DNA of 64,000 bases from Pirellulales bacterium (lineage in GTDB: Bacteria; Planctomycetota; Planctomycetia; Pirellulales; JAICIG01), in assembly GCA_035533075.1 (NCBI GenBank), contig DATLUO010000221.1, positions 1 to 64,000 on the forward strand, written 5' to 3'. Positions within the stretch are counted from its first letter, which is position 1, and each line of letters begins with the position of its first letter. Below are positions 15,067 through 38,140 of this stretch, piece after piece. Made by a program: the position numbers and the translations under genes. Under the pieces are notes generated by a model. The model searched no databases and was not told the origin of the DNA. It saw nothing but the letters and a program-made list of their open reading frames with translations.

Positions 15067-15624
15067 ATGCACACGACTCCCGTCAGTCTGCTCGTGCGGT
15101 TGAAGCAACCCGAGCCGGAGGCCGCCTGGCAACGGTTCGTGGAGCTTTATACTCCGCTGCTCTTTTTCTGGGCCCGCCAGGCCGGGGTCGGCGCGCCGGA
15201 CGACGCCGACCTGGTGCAGGACGTGTTGGCCCTGCTGGTGCAAAAAATGCCGGGCTTCGACTACGACCCGCAGCAAAGTTTTCGCGGCTGGATACGCACG
15301 ATGATGCGCAACCGCATCCGTGACCTGCGCCGCCGGCATCACGTTCCTGAAGCGGCGGTCGACGAGAGCTGGCTGGCCGAGTTGCCCGCTCCCAAAGACG
15401 ACGCCTGGGAAGAAGAACATCGCCAACTTCTCGTTTCCCGCGCGGCCGAGATGATGCAAGCGAGTTTTCACGAGACCACCTGGCGGGCCTGCTGGGAATC
15501 GACGGTCAACGAGCGTCCGGCGGCGGAAGTGGCCCGCATGCTCGGCATCAGCGAAAACGCCGTCTATATCGCCAAGGGAAGAGTCCTTCGGCGGCTGCGG
15601 CGGGAACTTGAAGGGCTGTTGTAG
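15067..15624 (+). CDS. ECF-type RNA polymerase sigma factor
   Basis: A 185-aa sigma-70-family protein. Region 2 spans WQRFVELYTPLLFFWARQAG, DADLVQDVLALLVQK and FRGWIRTMMRNRIRDLRRRH. Region 4 is the C-terminal helix-turn-helix RPAAEVARMLGISENAVYIA followed by KGRVLRRLRREL. There is no region 1 or 3, as expected for ECF factors. It lies 163 bp upstream of the giant kinase gene, an arrangement seen with planctomycete kinase-linked ECF factors. A conserved two-block promoter-like sequence precedes both the kinase and the giant surface-protein gene and is the natural candidate for its target. Confidence 0.93.
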   Translation: MHTTPVSLLVRLKQPEPEAAWQRFVELYTPLLFFWARQAGVGAPDDADLVQDVLALLVQKMPGFDYDPQQSFRGWIRTMMRNRIRDLRRRHHVPEAAVDESWLAELPAPKDDAWEEEHRQLLVSRAAEMMQASFHETTWRACWESTVNERPAAEVARMLGISENAVYIAKGRVLRRLRRELEGLL

Positions 15625-15719: not shown

Positions 15720-15753
15720 TCCTGACAGGTTTTGCCCCCTGCCAACGTACATG
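15720..15753 (+). promoter_or_regulatory. Putative ECF-sigma promoter of the kinase gene
   Basis: The block tcctgacaggttttgcc (15720-15736), 9 unconserved bases, then cgtacatg (15746-15753). The same 17-bp and 8-bp blocks with the same 9-bp spacing occur at 23159-23192 before the giant surface-protein gene. Conservation of both blocks and of the spacing, with different sequence between, is what a -35/-10 pair looks like. The ATG follows 34 bp after the second block. Confidence 0.75.
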
Positions 15754-15787
15754 CTGTTATGGCCCGCTTTTTATGGAGAATCGAACC

Positions 15788-18700
15788 ATGACCGACAAGG
15801 CGGTTTGCCCGGATGCGGCGGCGATCGAACGGCTGCTGCTGGGACGCACCAGCGACGCGGAAACCGACGATCTCGAGCGGCACCTGCTCGATTGCGACCG
15901 CTGTTGCGAGGTTTCGCGTTCGCTGCATCTCGACGACACGATGGTGGCCGGCTTGCGGCGCGACAACCACTTGGCCGCCATCGCCCAGGAGGCCCCGGTG
16001 CGAGCCACGATGGCCCGGCTGATGGCCCTGCGGACTGCCGCGGCCGCCAGCCAGCCGGAAGAGACGATGACGGTGGCCGGCGAGAGCACCGACGACGCCT
16101 GGGGGCTGCGCGAGCTGCTCGACCCGCCCCAGGCCGAGGGCGAGCTGGGCGGTTTCGCCGGCTACCGCGTGCTGCGCGTGCTCGGCGCCGGCGGCATGGG
16201 CATCGTCCTGGAGGCCGAAGATCCGCAGTTGCAACGCCGCGTGGCGCTGAAAATCATGAATCGCGGCCTGGCCGCCCGCAGCGAAAACCGCCAGCGGTTC
16301 CTGCGCGAGGCACGGGCGGCGGCGGCCATCGAGCACGCGCACATCGTCACGGTCCACCAGGTGGGCGAGCAGCGGGGCGTGCCCTTTCTGGCCATGCAGT
16401 TACTCAAGGGCGAGAGCTTGCACGACCGGCTCGAGAGAGAGGGTTCAGGCACCCAGAGGGTACCCCGGGTTCAGGGTTCAGAAAAGAGGGAAGCGGGAAT
16501 GGACAATCCAAAATCCAAAATCCAAAATCCAAAATCGCCTCTGCCGCTGGCCGAGTGCCTGCGCATCGGCCGCGAAACGGCCGAGGCCCTGGCCGTGGCG
16601 CACCAGCGGGGGCTGATCCATCGCGACATCAAGCCGGCCAACATCTGGCTCGAATCGCCGGGCGGCTGGGTGAAGCTGGTCGATTTCGGCCTGGCCCACG
16701 TCGTGGAAGACGAAGTCCATCTTACCCAGACCGGCGCCATCCTGGGCACACCGTCCTATATGTCGCCCGAACAGGCCCGCGGAGACAGCGTGGGTCCGCG
16801 GTCGGACCTGTTCAGCCTGGGCGTGGTGCTCTATCGGCTGACGACCGGGCAAACTCCTTTTCAGGGCCGTGGCACGCTGGCCGTGCTGACGGCGCTGGCC
16901 ACGGCCGATCCGCGGCCCGTGGGCGAGTTGAACCCGGAGCTACCGCCGGCGTTTGCCGACGTCATCATGCGGCTGTTGGCCAAGGATCCGGGCGAGCGGT
17001 TCGAGTCGGCGGAGGCGGTGGCCGAGGCGATTCGGGCAATCGAGGCGGCGGAGAGCGAGGGAGCGAGGGAGAGACAGAGAGACGGAGCGAGGGAGAGACG
17101 GAGCGAGGGAGAGATGGCGGGCAGACCGCCGCGGCGCCGATCGCGCTGGCCGTTGGTGGCCGCGGCGGCAGCGGCTTGTTTTCTGTTGGCGGGCATGGTG
17201 GTGGTCATCCGCGACAAGGAGGGCCGCGAGGTGGCGCGGATCAACGTGCCGGAAGGCGGCAGCGTCGCGACCGAAGAGAGTCCGGCGAGCCCCGCCGCGC
17301 CGGGACGTAAGCTTGCCGGTAGTACCGATGCGGCGAGCCGCCGCGCCACACCAACCCGAAGCGCCAGCGAGGAAAGCGCCAAAGCAGGCCCGGTCCCGGC
17401 GCGCCGGGGTGACGGGAGCGCCAGCCCGTCGCCCGAAGGGCGACCGGCGTCTCCGCCATCCCGGCGCGCCGGGATCGGAGCTACTTTGCCCGACCGTGCG
17501 AAGCCGTTCCTCTTGGTCCGCGAGGGAAAACAGGCCGCCGAGTTCAAGACCATCGCCGGCGCGCTGGGCGAAATGCAAGCCGGCGACGCGATCGAGGTCT
17601 ACGGCAATGGGCCCTTCACGCTGCCGATCGTCAATCTCGATGGCAAGCCGTTCACGCTCCGCGCCGGCGCCGGTTTTCGCCCGCGGTTCGTGCGCACCGA
17701 GGGGGCCAAGCAACAATTCCACAGCGCGTGGATCACAGTCAACAACGCGCCGCTGACACTGGAAGGCATCGAGCTGCGCGAAGATCTGCTTGCCCACAAT
17801 ATCCTGCACGGCGGCGGGGCACCCTGGGAAATCCGCCGCTGCCTGTTGCGCAGGGGGGATTCCCATGCTGCAGCACTGCTTCATTATGAACGTGGACCGC
17901 ACCTGCGAATCGTCGACAGCGTGTTGGCATCGGGGCATAGCCAATATTCGATCAAAATTGGCACATCGGCCGAGGTCCACTGCGAAAACAACCTGTATTG
18001 GAGCGGTGGCAGTTTCTTCACGCTCCAGGGCGGCGGCCAGAAGCTTCGCTTCACGCGGAACACGTTCGCCGGCCAGGGCACTTGGCTCCATTTTCCAGAT
18101 GCGGAACATGCCGCCGTGGAAGTGCTGGCGGAAGAGAACGTGTTTCGCGTCGGCCAATTGCTATGCACGCGCACCACCAGCATGGAGGTATTTCGCGAGG
18201 TCTGTCGCTGGAACGGTCGCCGCAATCTGCACGGTGTTGTCGGTGGTGCCAGCAGTTTGATCTTCAGTCAACCTCTTGAAGGTTCGGGCAGGGTGAGCAT
18301 CGCTGGCGACGACCTGGCCGCCTGGAGCAAGTTCTGGGGCGAGCATGAACAAGGCGCCATGCTCGGTACGACGCCGACGCTGAGGTATGAGGCCGCCTGG
18401 CTGGCCCCTAAGGCCGGCGACCCCCGGCGCGGCGGCAGAGGCATTGCGCTCCGCCGTGATGAAACTCCCCTACCGCGGCTGCACCACTGGCTCGACCCGC
18501 GCCCGCTCGACCCGCTGTCGCCCACCACGGCAGGCTCCGAAGGCGACGCTGGCCCCAGCGCCGCGGTCGGCCCCGATTGGCGCCTGGTCGGCCCCGGCGA
18601 AGCATACCTGCGCGCACTGGCCGATGCCGGGCATCCGGTCACCGACGAGCAGCTTGGCCTGGAGGGGACTGAAGAGGGCGCGGTGGTGCTGCTCCACGAG

Positions 18701-21700
18701 AATACGCTGGCCCGTGGTTACGCGACGGTCGCCGAGGCGGTCGCCGCCGCAGCCGACGGCGACACCGTGGCCATCCGCGCCAACGGCACGTTTCCGGGCT
18801 TCGACCGGCGCGGTGAGCGACAGGGCAAGCGGCTCACGCTGCGCGCCGGTTATGGCTATCAACCGACGATCGGCGATAACGTGCTGTTGGCCCCGGGCGA
18901 TGTGTGGTCGATCGAAGACTTGCACTTCAGTGGCCAGGTCTGGGTGGCGAACGGCGCGCCGGCGGCCGAGGGTCAACCGGCGCCGCGGCTGCTCAATTGC
19001 AGTTTCGAGCCTGCCCTGGCAGCCTCTGGTCCGATGCCGCAGGTCACGACCTACTCGGAAAGCGCTCCGCCGCTGGAGGTGGTGAATTGCCTGCTGCCGA
19101 ATGGGGTCAACTTCGCCGGCGCACGGCTGCGTGTGGTGAATTCGGTTATTGCCTCGGTCGGTCTCAATCCGATCGAGCCGCAACGGCCGCGCGCGCTGGA
19201 TCTCGACCGTTGCGTGGTCTGGAGCAACTTCTCGCCGGCCATTCAACACGGTACTGTTCAGTTGACGGTCAGCGCGCGGCGCACCTGGTTTGAGTTTAGC
19301 AGTTTCCTGCGCCAGGGTGACGACGCGGCATTTCAGTGGCAGGGCGACGAAAACGTCTACTGTCACGGGGCCGTGCGATGGCAGAGCGATTGTGATCTGA
19401 CCACCGCCGCCAATTATGTCGGTTCCCTGCCGGCATGGCAGGCGCGCTGGTCGAGCGACGCAGGCTCGCGCCAGGGCGACGCCGTGTTCATCGACCCGCG
19501 CTTCTGCGGGCTGTTGCCCAACAGCCCCGGCCATCAGGCCGCGCAAGACGGCGGCGACCTGGGCGTGGACCTGAGCCGTCTGGGCATGGCAACCCCGAGC
19601 GACAAGGTAGACCCGGCACTCCGTGACGGGGGCGCCAGCCCGTCGCCCGAAGGGCGACCGACGTCTCCGCCACGGAGTGTCGGAGCTACGTTGCCCGAAC
19701 CGCCGCCGCTCGACGAGTGGCTCAAGGGGCGAGAAATCCTGACCGTCGCCCAGGACGGCAGCGGACAGTTCAAGACCATTCAGGCGGCGCTCGATGCGCT
19801 TAAGCCGCACCAGGTGGTAAAGGTGCTCGACCGCGGGCCATATCGCGAAGTGGTCCGCGCAGACGGCCTGCCACACGATACCGGGCTCATCAGCGACCGG
19901 CAAGCGACCATCCAGCTTTCGGAATGGGACAAGCACGACGGAGCCTACTTAAGCGGGCACAGCTTCGGCCCGCTGGACGGCTTTCGCCTTGCCGGGTGCC
20001 GTTTCGTCGCGCCTCCGCATGAGAAGTGGGTCTGGGCTTCAATTATCGGCTTGCGACGAGTCGAGGGACTTGTGGTGGAAGATTGCTACTTCGGCTGGAC
20101 AGAGCCTCGGCCGGAAAACCGCATCGATCCCGAACCCGCGATCTGCTTGTACTCTGATGACGGCCAGCGCGGCAGTGCCCCGAATGTGGTGCGAAACTGC
20201 TTCTTCAACGCTGCGGCTCTCGGCCTCCAGGGCCCCAACCTCTTCGTCGACCGGAATTTCTTCGTCGACACGATCATCGCGCTGAGTGGACCGAAGCACG
20301 AGACGCGCATTCGGCACAATGTGTTGGTCCGCGATGGGTTTGTGCTCGATTTAGTCAAGATCGACGAGGTCACGGGATTCGTGGAAATCAGCAACAATAC
20401 GGTCTTCGGTGCCGGTTTCGATGTCCGCGACGGCGCACCGAGACAAGGCGTCGCCATTCGCAACAACATTACTACGCAAGGGGTTCGCCTCAGCGGTGAG
20501 GCCGACAAGCTGCGAGACCAAATCTTTAAGAACTGGCTGGTGGACCATAACAGTTACTTACGCCTCGGCTCGCTGCCGAAGGGGCGCGGCGACATCCTGG
20601 AAGATCCCGCGTTCCTTTCGACGGAGCCTGGCGGCCGGGACTACGCGCGCATTCCCGCCGACGGTCCCTTGGCCTCGGGCGGCGCCGGCGGCGACTTGCC
20701 GGACTACGTCGGCGCCTTGCCGCCCGGCCCCGCGCCCAAGGAAGGCGATTGGTTTACGCGGCTGCGAGAGCGGTGGCAGGCCGGCGAGGACAAAGTAGAC
20801 CCGGTCCCGGCGCGCCGGGATGATGTGGGCGCCAGCCCGTCGCCCGAAGGGCGACCAACGTCTCCGCCACGGACCGTTGTTCCCCGTCTACCGCCTACCG
20901 ACTACCGTCTACCTACCTTGGCCGACGAGCGGGCGGTGGCCAAGTGGGTCGTCGAGAACGGCGGCACGGCGGAATGCGGAGACTACCGAAGCTGGCGGAG
21001 CCTGCCCGTGAGGACGGTCCGGCTCAACGGCAACTTGTCGGTGTACGACGATTCGCTGGCACGTTTCCGGCACTGCCCCCGGCTGGACTTCATCGACTTG
21101 AAGCGCACGCTCATCTCCGACGCGGGCCTGGTGTACTTGGCGCCCCTGAGCATGCTTCGCCACCTCGACCTGCGCGAGACCGACGTTTCCGACGCCGGCG
21201 TGCAACGTCTCGCCGCGTTGAAGCTCCTGGAGCGGCTTGACTTAAGCGGCACGCGCGTCAGCAATGCGGCCCTGCCCACGCTGGCCACGGCGTTTCCCGT
21301 GCTACGTTTCCTGCTGCTCGAAGGCACAGCGATTACCGACGCGGGCCTGCCCGCACTGGCCGCACTGGAGCAATTGGACGAGCTCGACCTCAGCCACACC
21401 CAAGTGACCGATGCCGGGCTGGCGCGACTGCAACCGCTCACGGGTCTGATGCGCCTTTCACTCGCGGGCACCGAGACGACCGACGCGGGCATCGACGCGC
21501 TGCACAAGGCGCTCGTCGATTGCTGGATCACCGGGCCGGACGGACGCCTTCACGCCCCGCCGGTGCGCGACGACGATCCCGATCGAACGGCGGCCGAGGC
21601 CCTGCTGGAGAGAGGCTTCAAGGAGATCTGCCTGACGGCCGACGGAGTCAACGAGACGCGTTGCCGGGCCGCGGCGGATCTTCCGCGCGGGCCGTTCAAG

Positions 21701-22711
21701 GTGCTGCGCGTCGAGGTGCTCTGGATGGGCCACGCGCCGAACATCGCGGATGCCGGAGCCGTGGGCGACGCAGAAATCAAGCTGCTCGCGCGGCTGCGGC
21801 AGCTTCGCGTTGCGAATTTGAACGGCACGCAAGTCACAGACCGTGGGCTGGATTGCCTGAAGGGCTTGCCGAAACTCGCCGAGCTGGGCCTCAGCGGCTG
21901 CCGGCGCTTGACCGCTAACGCCCTGTCGCTCTTGGCGACGCTGCCGCGGCTTCGCCTGCTGTGGATCGACGGCGGGTGTTGCACCCCCGCCAGTCTCCAG
22001 CACGTCGCGGCGCTGGCGTATCTCGACTTCCTGCACATCAACGGCGACCAGTTCGCCGACGCGACGCTGAAAAGGCTCAGCGGATTGTCGAACCTGCGGT
22101 TCCTGCGACTGAGCGGCGGGAAAGTCAGCAGCGCTGGTCTGGGGCAGCTCGCATCCCTGCGCAGCCTTTTGTCTTTGGACCTGTCAGATGATGTGAGGTT
22201 GCAGACGAGCGACCTTGAGGGCCTTGCCGAGGTGCGCGGATTGGAAGAGCTTGGTCTGCCCGGCGTCCTCACTTCGCCCGACGTGTTCCGCCGGCTTGCC
22301 GCCCTGCCGCGCTTACTGGTTCTTACTACGCGCGGAACCAAGCTTGGCGACGACGGCTGTCGAGCGATCGCCGGACTGCGGTCATTGGAGGGGCTCGACG
22401 TGACTGGGCGTTTAGTGACCGACGCCGAACTGGCGCACCTCGCGCGGTTGTCGGATTTGCGATATCTGCTGCTGGATGCGGGACAAATCACCGACGCCGG
22501 CCTGGCGCACCTCGCGCAGTTGTCCAATCTGCGAGAGCTCGTGCTCCGCCCGGCGCTCAGCATGAGCGGCGCGGGCCTCGAGCATCTGCACGGCCTGAAG
22601 ATGCTCAAGGTGCTGAGGCTGGTGCAGTTGCCCGTCACTGAATCCACCGAGTCGGGCGTCGCGGCCTTCAAGGCCGCCGTGCCCGGCTGCAGCGTCGATT
22701 GGCCGAAATGA
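15788..22711 (+). CDS. Giant Hanks-type Ser/Thr kinase with beta-helix and leucine-rich-repeat sensor
   Basis: A 2307-aa protein. Start ATG 15788, with GGAG nine bases upstream. Residues 32-39 hold an HxxxCxxC motif (HLLDCDRC) like zinc anti-sigma domains. The kinase spans roughly 126-420, with GAGGMG, the ATP-binding Lys in VALKIM, HRDIKPAN, DFGLAH and GTPSYMSPEQARG all intact. A membrane helix lies near 450-474. Outside follow three parallel beta-helix units (about 573-895, 935-1271, 1305-1658), each opening with a FKTIAGAL/YATVAEAV/FKTIQAAL segment, then LRRs to the C terminus (1710-2304). Short DNA repeats have inserted in frame: one inside the kinase domain, three in interdomain linkers. 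Confidence 0.9.
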   Translation: MTDKAVCPDAAAIERLLLGRTSDAETDDLERHLLDCDRCCEVSRSLHLDDTMVAGLRRDNHLAAIAQEAPVRATMARLMALRTAAAASQPEETMTVAGESTDDAWGLRELLDPPQAEGELGGFAGYRVLRVLGAGGMGIVLEAEDPQLQRRVALKIMNRGLAARSENRQRFLREARAAAAIEHAHIVTVHQVGEQRGVPFLAMQLLKGESLHDRLEREGSGTQRVPRVQGSEKREAGMDNPKSKIQNPKSPLPLAECLRIGRETAEALAVAHQRGLIHRDIKPANIWLESPGGWVKLVDFGLAHVVEDEVHLTQTGAILGTPSYMSPEQARGDSVGPRSDLFSLGVVLYRLTTGQTPFQGRGTLAVLTALATADPRPVGELNPELPPAFADVIMRLLAKDPGERFESAEAVAEAIRAIEAAESEGARERQRDGARERRSEGEMAGRPPRRRSRWPLVAAAAAACFLLAGMVVVIRDKEGREVARINVPEGGSVATEESPASPAAPGRKLAGSTDAASRRATPTRSASEESAKAGPVPARRGDGSASPSPEGRPASPPSRRAGIGATLPDRAKPFLLVREGKQAAEFKTIAGALGEMQAGDAIEVYGNGPFTLPIVNLDGKPFTLRAGAGFRPRFVRTEGAKQQFHSAWITVNNAPLTLEGIELREDLLAHNILHGGGAPWEIRRCLLRRGDSHAAALLHYERGPHLRIVDSVLASGHSQYSIKIGTSAEVHCENNLYWSGGSFFTLQGGGQKLRFTRNTFAGQGTWLHFPDAEHAAVEVLAEENVFRVGQLLCTRTTSMEVFREVCRWNGRRNLHGVVGGASSLIFSQPLEGSGRVSIAGDDLAAWSKFWGEHEQGAMLGTTPTLRYEAAWLAPKAGDPRRGGRGIALRRDETPLPRLHHWLDPRPLDPLSPTTAGSEGDAGPSAAVGPDWRLVGPGEAYLRALADAGHPVTDEQLGLEGTEEGAVVLLHENTLARGYATVAEAVAAAADGDTVAIRANGTFPGFDRRGERQGKRLTLRAGYGYQPTIGDNVLLAPGDVWSIEDLHFSGQVWVANGAPAAEGQPAPRLLNCSFEPALAASGPMPQVTTYSESAPPLEVVNCLLPNGVNFAGARLRVVNSVIASVGLNPIEPQRPRALDLDRCVVWSNFSPAIQHGTVQLTVSARRTWFEFSSFLRQGDDAAFQWQGDENVYCHGAVRWQSDCDLTTAANYVGSLPAWQARWSSDAGSRQGDAVFIDPRFCGLLPNSPGHQAAQDGGDLGVDLSRLGMATPSDKVDPALRDGGASPSPEGRPTSPPRSVGATLPEPPPLDEWLKGREILTVAQDGSGQFKTIQAALDALKPHQVVKVLDRGPYREVVRADGLPHDTGLISDRQATIQLSEWDKHDGAYLSGHSFGPLDGFRLAGCRFVAPPHEKWVWASIIGLRRVEGLVVEDCYFGWTEPRPENRIDPEPAICLYSDDGQRGSAPNVVRNCFFNAAALGLQGPNLFVDRNFFVDTIIALSGPKHETRIRHNVLVRDGFVLDLVKIDEVTGFVEISNNTVFGAGFDVRDGAPRQGVAIRNNITTQGVRLSGEADKLRDQIFKNWLVDHNSYLRLGSLPKGRGDILEDPAFLSTEPGGRDYARIPADGPLASGGAGGDLPDYVGALPPGPAPKEGDWFTRLRERWQAGEDKVDPVPARRDDVGASPSPEGRPTSPPRTVVPRLPPTDYRLPTLADERAVAKWVVENGGTAECGDYRSWRSLPVRTVRLNGNLSVYDDSLARFRHCPRLDFIDLKRTLISDAGLVYLAPLSMLRHLDLRETDVSDAGVQRLAALKLLERLDLSGTRVSNAALPTLATAFPVLRFLLLEGTAITDAGLPALAALEQLDELDLSHTQVTDAGLARLQPLTGLMRLSLAGTETTDAGIDALHKALVDCWITGPDGRLHAPPVRDDDPDRTAAEALLERGFKEICLTADGVNETRCRAAADLPRGPFKVLRVEVLWMGHAPNIADAGAVGDAEIKLLARLRQLRVANLNGTQVTDRGLDCLKGLPKLAELGLSGCRRLTANALSLLATLPRLRLLWIDGGCCTPASLQHVAALAYLDFLHINGDQFADATLKRLSGLSNLRFLRLSGGKVSSAGLGQLASLRSLLSLDLSDDVRLQTSDLEGLAEVRGLEELGLPGVLTSPDVFRRLAALPRLLVLTTRGTKLGDDGCRAIAGLRSLEGLDVTGRLVTDAELAHLARLSDLRYLLLDAGQITDAGLAHLAQLSNLRELVLRPALSMSGAGLEHLHGLKMLKVLRLVQLPVTESTESGVAAFKAAVPGCSVDWPK
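16438..16537. repeat. In-frame low-complexity insertion in the kinase domain
   Basis: ggttcagg repeats are followed by four tandem copies of aatccaaa. They add about 33 codons (including NPKSKIQNPKS) between the hinge segment LLKGESLHDRLE and the helix PLPLAECLRIGRETAEALAV. Normal kinases have a short linker here. The same aatccaaaatccaaaat string is one arm of the internal hairpin of the family A element at 54903-54942. Confidence 0.8.
17387..17484. repeat. Palindromic repeat family D, copy 1, inside the kinase gene
   Basis: Two copies of the 14-bp palindrome cccggcgcgccggg (17395-17408 and 17460-17473) flank the core gccagcccgtcgcccgaagg. The right end reads cggagctac. It encodes a linker with SASPSPEGRPASPP just outside the membrane helix and keeps the frame. 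Confidence 0.85.
19607..19689. repeat. Palindromic repeat family D, copy 2, inside the kinase gene
   Basis: Starts gtagacccgg, has the same core gccagcccgtcgcccgaagg, and ends cggagctac. The flanking arms are ggcactccgtgac and its near-complement cacggagtgtcgg instead of the GC palindrome. That compensating change of both arms indicates selection on the hairpin. In frame, in the linker between beta-helix units 2 and 3. Confidence 0.85.
20795..20873. repeat. Palindromic repeat family D, copy 3, inside the kinase gene
   Basis: Starts gtagacccgg, with the palindrome cccggcgcgccggg at 20806-20819 and the same core. The right arm is lost and is replaced by a taccgcctaccgactaccgt string. It encodes GASPSPEGRPTSPP in the linker between beta-helix 3 and the LRR domain. 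Confidence 0.82.
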
Positions 22712-22746
22712 CGCCTCCATTGGGGAAGTGTTGATGTAGCACATCC

Positions 22747-23068
22747 GACCCCATCGAGCTCGCCTCGATTGGTGAAGAAGATGGCGGGCTAGGTTGAAAA
22801 AAGCGACGTGGCGCACGACCCCATCCAGCTCGCCTGGATGGTGAAGCAGATCGTGAGCTACCGAGCAGCCGCCGGAAATCTTATTCACCATCCAGGCGAG
22901 CCGGATGGGGTCTTTTCGCGGAATTCCCCGGCAACCGATTAGCCCGCCATCTCGTTCACCGATCCGCGCAAGGCGGATGGGGTCCTTACTTTCGCGGAAT
23001 CCCCCGGCAACCGATTAGCCCGCATCTTGGTCACTCCCGGCGCGCCGGGACACAAGGCGGATGGGGTC
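22747..23068. repeat. Array of five 45-bp elements, family E
   Basis: Copies at 22747-22791 and 22817-22860 (plus orientation) and at about 22878-22912, 22940-22984 and 23016-23068 (minus orientation). The consensus runs gaccccatcc, gctcgcct, ggatggtgaa, then agatggcgggcta. The last three are separated by a direct repeat ttcgcggaat..ccccggcaaccgat. Copy five is interrupted by the family D palindrome cccggcgcgccggg (23036-23049). The array fills the gap between the kinase and surface-protein genes; opposed copies can form large hairpins and may terminate the kinase transcript. Confidence 0.85.
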
Positions 23069-23158
23069 CGGCGCGCGCGACGTCAAGCCTCGCCCCGCCC
23101 AACACTTGGCGCGCGCCCAAAACCCAAGACCCACGCCCCAAGACCCATTTCGAAATTC

Positions 23159-23192
23159 TCCTGACAGGTTTTGCCTGTTGGGCTCGTACATG
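23159..23192 (+). promoter_or_regulatory. Putative ECF-sigma promoter of the giant surface-protein gene
   Basis: tcctgacaggttttgcc (23159-23175), 9 bases (tgttgggct), then cgtacatg (23185-23192). It is identical in both blocks and spacing to the site before the kinase gene. The ATG at 23254 follows 61 bp later, with AGGAG at 23241-23245. Confidence 0.75.
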
Positions 23193-36670: not shown

Positions 36671-38140
36671 ATGCAGCAACACCAGAAAGCTTTTTGGGCC
36701 GCCGTCAAACGAGCGGCTGCCGCGCGCGACGAACGCGCAACCTTGCCGAAGGCCAGCCCGGTATTGTCGCCCTGGGCCTTTTGGCTGTTGGTGGCCCTGG
36801 TGCAGCAACGAAGGCGGCAGCGGTGGGTGGCCGACGTTGTCAGGAACCATCTGCAAGGCGACCCGGAAGCACTCGCCACGGCCGGCGCGCTCGGCCAACC
36901 GGAAGAGATCAGCCAGCAAGGCATCGTGCCGGGCATGCCGGAATGGGAATATCGCTTTCACGGCCGAGGCTGCGAGTTGACGCACCGAATTACCGGCGAG
37001 TCGATCGACGTCGATTTCTATGACGATGAGGGCGAATGGTTCGACGGCTGGTTCTATTGCCGCTATTTGAAGAAGGCCCGCCAGTTGACCCCGCCAGAGC
37101 AACGGCTGATCGAGCTTCACCCGTCGATCGACACCATCATGGTCAGCCTCGCCGAATTGAAGCTCACGCGATTTGCGACAGGCATCAAGGAGAACCGGGC
37201 AGTCTTTAAGTTGGCCGACGACGTGGTGGCCAACACGGCTCTGGTGGAAGCGTTCTGCGATGCGTGGAGCGGCGGCAAAAACCGCTTCTCCGCGGCCGTC
37301 GAGGTCGGCGATTGGCTGGCCGCAAGCGATCGCCTGCCCGAGGGCATCGACGAAACAACGGCCCGTCTGCTGCAAGCGGCCGCCGACGAGTGCCGCCGCG
37401 CGAGGGCCCAGATCGTGCTGCGGCAACTCGAAGAGGGCCGAGGCGATCGTACGGCCATGTTCGCCTTGGCCGAAGTTGGGCCGCCCGAACTGGATGCCGT
37501 CATCGAGAAGGTGCTTCAAGGCCAGCCGAGCAGCATGATGGTCGGAGCTCTCGACGTGATCGCGCGGCGCGGCGGTCCGGCCTGGTGCGATCGTGTTTTT
37601 GCCTTATTCGAGCGACTCGATCCCAACGCCGACATTCCCCAGCCGGCCGCCTGGATGCGCTGCGCGGTGTTCCTGATCAGGCAGGCTTACCGCGTGCCCG
37701 AAGTGCTGACGGCACTCTCGCGGGCCCGCAGCCATGAAGCGGCCGACGCGGCCCTGTTGCTGTTGGAGCATGCTCCGGAACTGAGCCGGCCGCAGTTTCG
37801 CGCGGCGCTGAGATCGAGCGTTCCTTTCGACCGGGCCAGGGCCGCGGCGATTCTCGCCATTCTGGACGAGGAGTGGGGGCGCCGCGAAATGATCGAGGCC
37901 CTGTGGGCGTCGGAAGACCAGCGAATGACTTCCGATTGCCGCGCGGCGCTTTGTTGCAGCCGCTCACCGGAGGCGCATCGAGCGGCGGAAGAGTGGGAAG
38001 AACGGTTTCCGCACGTGCCTGAGAGTGGGCCGTTTTACTCGGCGGCCGATGTGGCTTTGCGCAACTCTGATTCGTTTCTGCAATATGAGATGAGTCAGTT
38101 GCACGATCGGGTGCTGCCGTTGCGGGGCCGCGTGAAATAA
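36671..38140 (+). CDS. DUF6896-like domain plus HEAT-like helical repeats
   Basis: A 489-aa soluble protein. Around residues 95-140, EYRFHGRGCELTHRITGESI followed by DVDFYDDEGEWFDGWF resembles the DUF6896 domain found in immunity-like proteins. From about 210 onward, two-helix repeats of HEAT type dominate (for example TAMFALAEVGPPELDAVIEK, MMVGALDVIARRGGPAWCDR, AADAALLLLEHAPELSRPQF). No signal peptide. It starts 41 bp after the zinc-ribbon protein and probably shares its transcript. Function unknown; domain naming is by eye. Confidence 0.6.
   Translation: MQQHQKAFWAAVKRAAAARDERATLPKASPVLSPWAFWLLVALVQQRRRQRWVADVVRNHLQGDPEALATAGALGQPEEISQQGIVPGMPEWEYRFHGRGCELTHRITGESIDVDFYDDEGEWFDGWFYCRYLKKARQLTPPEQRLIELHPSIDTIMVSLAELKLTRFATGIKENRAVFKLADDVVANTALVEAFCDAWSGGKNRFSAAVEVGDWLAASDRLPEGIDETTARLLQAAADECRRARAQIVLRQLEEGRGDRTAMFALAEVGPPELDAVIEKVLQGQPSSMMVGALDVIARRGGPAWCDRVFALFERLDPNADIPQPAAWMRCAVFLIRQAYRVPEVLTALSRARSHEAADAALLLLEHAPELSRPQFRAALRSSVPFDRARAAAILAILDEEWGRREMIEALWASEDQRMTSDCRAALCCSRSPEAHRAAEEWEERFPHVPESGPFYSAADVALRNSDSFLQYEMSQLHDRVLPLRGRVK

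Follow-up and report, generated by a model that had tools for sequence, protein, structure and literature searches.

An AAC in the -35 element is typical of promoters read by ECF sigma factors. The -10 element of such promoters carries a CGT as its hallmark, and in the groups ECF43, ECF59 and ECF60 the acidic DAED motif of sigma2 is replaced by uncharged residues and phosphorylation is needed (PMC8103513). Most ECFs of Sinorhizobium meliloti control narrow regulons with limited cross-talk (PMC6180224). In planctomycetes, ECF genes number in the dozens and giant proteins are likewise numerous; little is known of how the latter are regulated or what they do, and a search of the open-access literature brought up no study in which an ECF controls a giant protein of a planctomycete.

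The locus described here lies within a window of 64,000 nucleotides, namely positions 1 to 64,000 of contig DATLUO010000221.1 (denoted C221) from a Pirellulales bacterium (assembly GCA_035533075.1). It comprises an ECF gene, a kinase gene and a gene for a giant protein (Table 1). We consider it very probable that two sites, identical outside a 9-bp spacer and located before the kinase gene and before the giant gene, are promoters of the adjacent ECF, that the kinase restrains this ECF by way of an anti-sigma domain, and that kinase and giant genes are the targets of the circuit, with the giant protein as its output.

Table 1. Features of the ECF-kinase-giant locus and of its paralog on contig C135; promoter assignments are predictions.
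Feature	Position	Strand	Basis
ECF sigma factor, 185 aa, sigma2 + sigma4	15067..15624	+	Pfam, NCBIfam, sequence
ECF-type promoter (predicted), kinase gene	15720..15753	+	exact two-block match, genome-unique pair, footprint in relatives
Predicted boxes, kinase-gene promoter	-35 TGACAG 15723-15728; 17-bp spacer; -10 CGTACA 15746-15751	+	
Anti-sigma/Ser-Thr kinase fusion (predicted), 2307 aa	15788..22711	+	Pfam, TM peak
Zinc-binding anti-sigma motif (predicted) C-x24-H-x3-C-x2-C, kinase residues 7-39	15806..15904	+	conservation, profile matches
Protein kinase domain, residues 126-412	16163..17023	+	Pfam
ECF-type promoter (predicted), giant gene	23159..23192	+	exact match, genome-unique pair, within-locus match
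Predicted boxes, giant-gene promoter	-35 TGACAG 23162-23167; -10 CGTACA 23185-23190	+	
Giant secreted-type protein, 3652 aa	23254..34212	+	Pfam, NCBIfam, translation
C135 giant protein, 4373 aa	C135:39460-52581	-	

An earlier note on this DNA had pointed to two blocks with identical 9-bp spacing before the kinase and giant genes, with unrelated sequence in between and an ECF gene directly upstream of the first site, and each of these observations is borne out. The pattern TCCTGACAGGTTTTGCC-N9-CGTACATG occurs exactly at both places, and the two 34-bp sites agree in all bases except for the 9-bp spacers, which are unrelated; common flanks do not extend beyond a few bases. A third copy is missing from the window even when 3 mismatches are tolerated, and 100 dinucleotide shuffles of the window did not yield a single match. 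In the genome (8.54 Mb) a scan allowing up to 3 mismatches returned these two sites only, both before start codons; a much looser core with 2 mismatches gave 16 matches genome-wide versus 21 for a reversed control pattern. Since the pair is exact, unique in the genome and absent from the shuffles, it is real, non-random and private to the C221 locus.

The proposed assignment of the two blocks to -35 and -10 elements is supported as such, with the refinement that the 17-bp block is more than the -35 element: it is made up of three bases, the putative -35 box TGACAG and 8 further bases, with which the 17-bp spacer begins. The putative -10 box CGTACA fits the CGT type, the -35 box TGACAG is devoid of AAC, and the link between the ECF and these boxes is an inferred one. 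The sites end 34 bp and 61 bp ahead of the ATG codons of the kinase gene and the giant gene, respectively. The ECF gene has no such site upstream, neither in C221 nor in C135, and therefore is probably not autoregulated; the regulon appears to contain the kinase gene and the giant gene only. The interval between these two genes harbors inverted repeats of 35-45 nt based on GACCCCATCCAG...GGATGGGGTC (22747-22984), which possibly insulate the two transcripts from each other. No Rfam match was obtained in the window.

About a dozen ECFs related to the window ECF are present in this genome. The closest paralog of the ECF, 55% identical to it, is located on contig C135 of the same genome, and the gene order of C221 is repeated there: after the ECF come a zinc-finger kinase of 1529 aa and then a giant protein of 4373 aa. 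The kinases of both loci are 52% identical across the N-terminal half-thousand residues. A BLASTP comparison of the C221 giant with residues 1-3694 of its C135 counterpart gave no match at 1e-3, and DUF4214 is found at the C-terminal end of both. The C135 kinase gene is preceded by GCGCGCAAGGGTTCGCCGGTTCGACTCGTA and the giant gene by GCGCGCAAGGTTTCGGCGGCCCGACTCGTA; in a genome scan with up to 3 mismatches the pair GCGCAAGGNTTCG...CGACTCGTA was confined to those two places. In all four sites of the two loci AGG is separated from CGTA by 16 bp (AGG-N16-CGTA). Comparison of the regions upstream of kinase and giant genes gave best 34-bp matches of 27/34 within C221 and 28/34 within C135 (no shuffle exceeded 24 in either case, p<=0.001), versus only 20 and 22 between the loci (p=0.24 and 0.05). 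Because the match is strong within and weak or absent between the loci, kinase and giant promoters are judged, from their sequences, to have drifted together in each locus. This joint drift is the strongest evidence for a single specificity factor acting at both sites of each locus.

Further ECF-kinase paralogs of this genome, on C269 and C240 (L045, L046), carry a different element, TGTWAG...CTCGCGCATA, which in this genome is present only before their own kinases. Paralogous ECF-kinase loci of the genome thus appear to use different promoter sequences, the C221 promoter being private. An asparagine in the sigma4 motif (S/T)xN is found in 8/9 ECFs with TGACAG-like sites and in 0/4 with TGTWAG-like sites; as this comparison was made post hoc, a tie between the residue and the promoter type is only a lead. 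Many of the loci L045, L046, L044, L062, L092, L048 and L050 contain a run of A or T that precedes the putative -35 box by about 10-25 bp and resembles an UP element.

Similar sites were also sought in related loci with a position-weight model, which was derived from the four sites of C221 and C135 and used to score a 350-bp stretch following each of 22 related ECFs, two of which are paralogs from the same genome. At the ECF-kinase junction Fisher's combined p is 3e-6, compared to 0.72 upstream of the same 22 ECFs and 0.83 downstream of ECFs of another clade. The strongest junction sites are those in genomes G050 (TGCAAGGTTTCC-11-CGTAAA), G261 (TGACAGGTTTTC-10-TGTACT), G335 (TGACAGGTTTCC-11-CGTCAA) and G060 (TGAAAGGTTGCT-11-AGTACT). 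G050 and G335 each have a single mismatch-free match to the N11 form, and G261 has a single one to the N10 form; all three lie at the ECF-kinase junction beside an ECF of the window-ECF family. For over half of the 22 loci no convincing match was obtained, and several appear to use other sequences. The gap between ECF and kinase genes, mostly 13-65 bp in the other clade, usually measures 58-665 bp in the subfamily of the window ECF and thereby leaves room for a separate kinase promoter. An order-wide scan with the full motif and 2 mismatches stayed at the control level apart from the two sites of this genome. A relaxed consensus matched exactly in 17 of 397 genomes, beside an ECF of the window-ECF family only in G261 and G335; the other matches look like chance or repeats and were dismissed.

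The giant-protein target is seen only in this genome, there twice (C221 and C135), whereas the relatives display the kinase site only. In other genomes a scan of about 18 kb downstream did not reveal a further site ahead of a giant gene; many contigs of these incomplete assemblies are short, and strongly diverged sites would escape such a scan. Among about 45 related loci in which a repetition of the kinase promoter was sought, C135 alone yielded a promoter-like pair that includes a site ahead of a giant gene. In G309:C156 a sequence found ahead of the ECF recurs ahead of the kinase, and the remaining second-copy matches were discarded as simple or dispersed repeats or as chance-level. Taken together, the genome-unique pair, the paralog with its co-diverged pair and the footprint at ECF-kinase junctions elsewhere uphold the suggestion of the earlier note that kinase and giant genes have an ECF promoter in common.

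The pair of sites might alternatively be the product of chance or of a functionless mobile short repeat, and small repeats are indeed plentiful in the region. However, such matches are absent from shuffled sequence, the copies share neither spacer nor flanks beyond a few bases, each is closely followed by a start codon, and at C135 the same arrangement is built from a different sequence, which leaves this explanation next to no chance. An operator for a separate DNA-binding regulator, organized around the inverted repeat CCTGACAGG and distinct from a sigma promoter, would account for the perfect repeat CCTG-A-CAGG inside the 17-bp block as well as for an exact block longer than a usual -35 box. 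Yet neither the C135 pair nor the relatives preserve this repeat (GGTGACAGG, GCTGACAGG, GCTGAAAGG, TCTGCAAGG), while their AGG-to-CGTA spacing is kept at 16 or 15. In addition, the second block, a canonical ECF -10 element, lies at promoter distance from the start codons, so that an operator is very unlikely.

Finally, the sites could be ECF promoters read by a different or shared ECF, with the adjacent ECF not being the dedicated activator. The genome contains many ECF genes, 51 candidates at first look, and cross-talk between sigma factors is possible. Against such an assignment, promoter types are specific to the individual ECF-kinase loci, the pairs within a locus co-diverge, and similar sites in other genomes occur just downstream of an ECF of the same family, so that we rate it as unlikely. 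Proximity and co-divergence both point to recognition of the sites by the window ECF itself.

The protein encoded by the ECF gene matches Pfam Sigma70_r2 (3e-11) and NCBIfam sigma70-ECF (3.7e-19); the TIGR02937 match covers residues 20-181 and, with sigma2 and sigma4 as the only domains, places it in the ECF family (group IV). Profile comparison with the PDB retrieved CnrH, RpoE/SigE and SigL, and the acidic sigma2 motif is retained and reads DDAD. Elsewhere in the genome a 55-residue fragment (C184:2977-3141, L051) is 87% identical to residues 96-150 of this ECF; the remainder of the gene is absent, and the fragment is a remnant of a recent duplication. At C281:26098-26652 (L050) an ECF gene of the wider family is directly followed by a gene for a 3017-aa giant without a kinase in between, and the leader of that giant, IEPLEQRQL, resembles the one of the C221 giant.

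The kinase (Pfam Pkinase 1.7e-41, LRR_14 8.5e-20) is composed of a zinc anti-sigma domain, the kinase domain, one TM helix with a peak beginning near residue 456, and a large extracytoplasmic region with leucine-rich repeats at its end. Residues C7, H32, C36 and C39 are invariant in 17/17 homologous kinases, 10 of which match Pfam zf-HC2; the window kinase alone gives an E-value of 0.033, below the Pfam cut-off. An N-terminal profile matched the anti-sigma structures DdvA, ChrR, 3hug (which we take to be RslA) and RsiW with E-values from 1.8e-7 to 3.6e-4. Because of the invariant residues, the zf-HC2 matches and the profile matches to solved anti-sigma factors, the N-terminus is assigned by sequence as a zinc-binding anti-sigma domain and the protein as a predicted membrane anti-sigma/kinase fusion. 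A C...HxxxCxxC domain combined with a TM helix, as looked for in a zinc-binding anti-sigma neighbour, is thus present. Related kinases at L104 (G335) and L106 (G208) are devoid of the N-terminal zinc-finger anti-sigma motif, and the ECFs that go with them have an altered acidic motif in sigma2.

The C221 giant protein displays an arginine-rich leader with LEQRSLLSA, CARDB, RHS/YD repeats, fn3 and two C-terminal DUF4214 domains; it is presumably secreted and surface-located. A DUF6896 protein is encoded at 36671-38140, about 2.5 kb downstream of this RHS-containing gene.

In the proposed mechanism, the transmembrane kinase would use its N-terminal zinc anti-sigma domain to keep the ECF at the membrane in the resting state. 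A signal received by the extracytoplasmic region, which the kinase activity may help to relay, would free the ECF, and RNA polymerase carrying it would read both sites (-35 TGACAG, 17 bp, -10 CGTACA). Transcription of the kinase gene would replenish the inhibitor of the ECF in a negative feedback, while that of the giant gene would supply a secreted protein as output. Release mechanism, feedback and the sensing role of the kinase are all inferred here.

The design suggests a sigma factor that controls its inhibitor and one output and not itself. Whether ECF/anti-sigma-kinase loci in general are plug-in circuits, in which each paralog has a private promoter regulating its inhibitor and not itself, at least two of them with different giants as sole output, is an evenly balanced question. 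If they are, one genome would operate parallel, insulated lines from sensor to giant protein. A concrete and testable regulator, promoter and target can now be proposed for two giant proteins, and C221 and C135 constitute a natural pair of paralogous sigma-promoter systems with swappable specificity.

With ECFs governed by membrane zinc anti-sigma factors of the ChrR/RslA/RsiW type the system shares the acidic sigma2 motif, the adjacent C...HxxxCxxC domain and the CGT-type -10 element, and with the membrane-bound members of that type also the TM helix of the anti-sigma protein. Unlike in these, the anti-sigma domain is predicted to be fused to a Ser/Thr kinase with a very large extracytoplasmic region, and the site precedes the kinase gene and not the ECF gene. 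An ECF gene adjoining a Ser/Thr kinase gene is also characteristic of ECF43, ECF59 and ECF60 (EcfP/PknT, EcfK/PknS). Identity with their phospho-switch was rejected because of the acidic DDAD motif, and in contrast to these groups the kinase itself carries an anti-sigma domain. The very small number of targets is reminiscent of the narrow-regulon ECFs of S. meliloti; here, however, a single giant gene next door is the target other than the regulator, and the same layout is found again at a paralogous locus under a different promoter.
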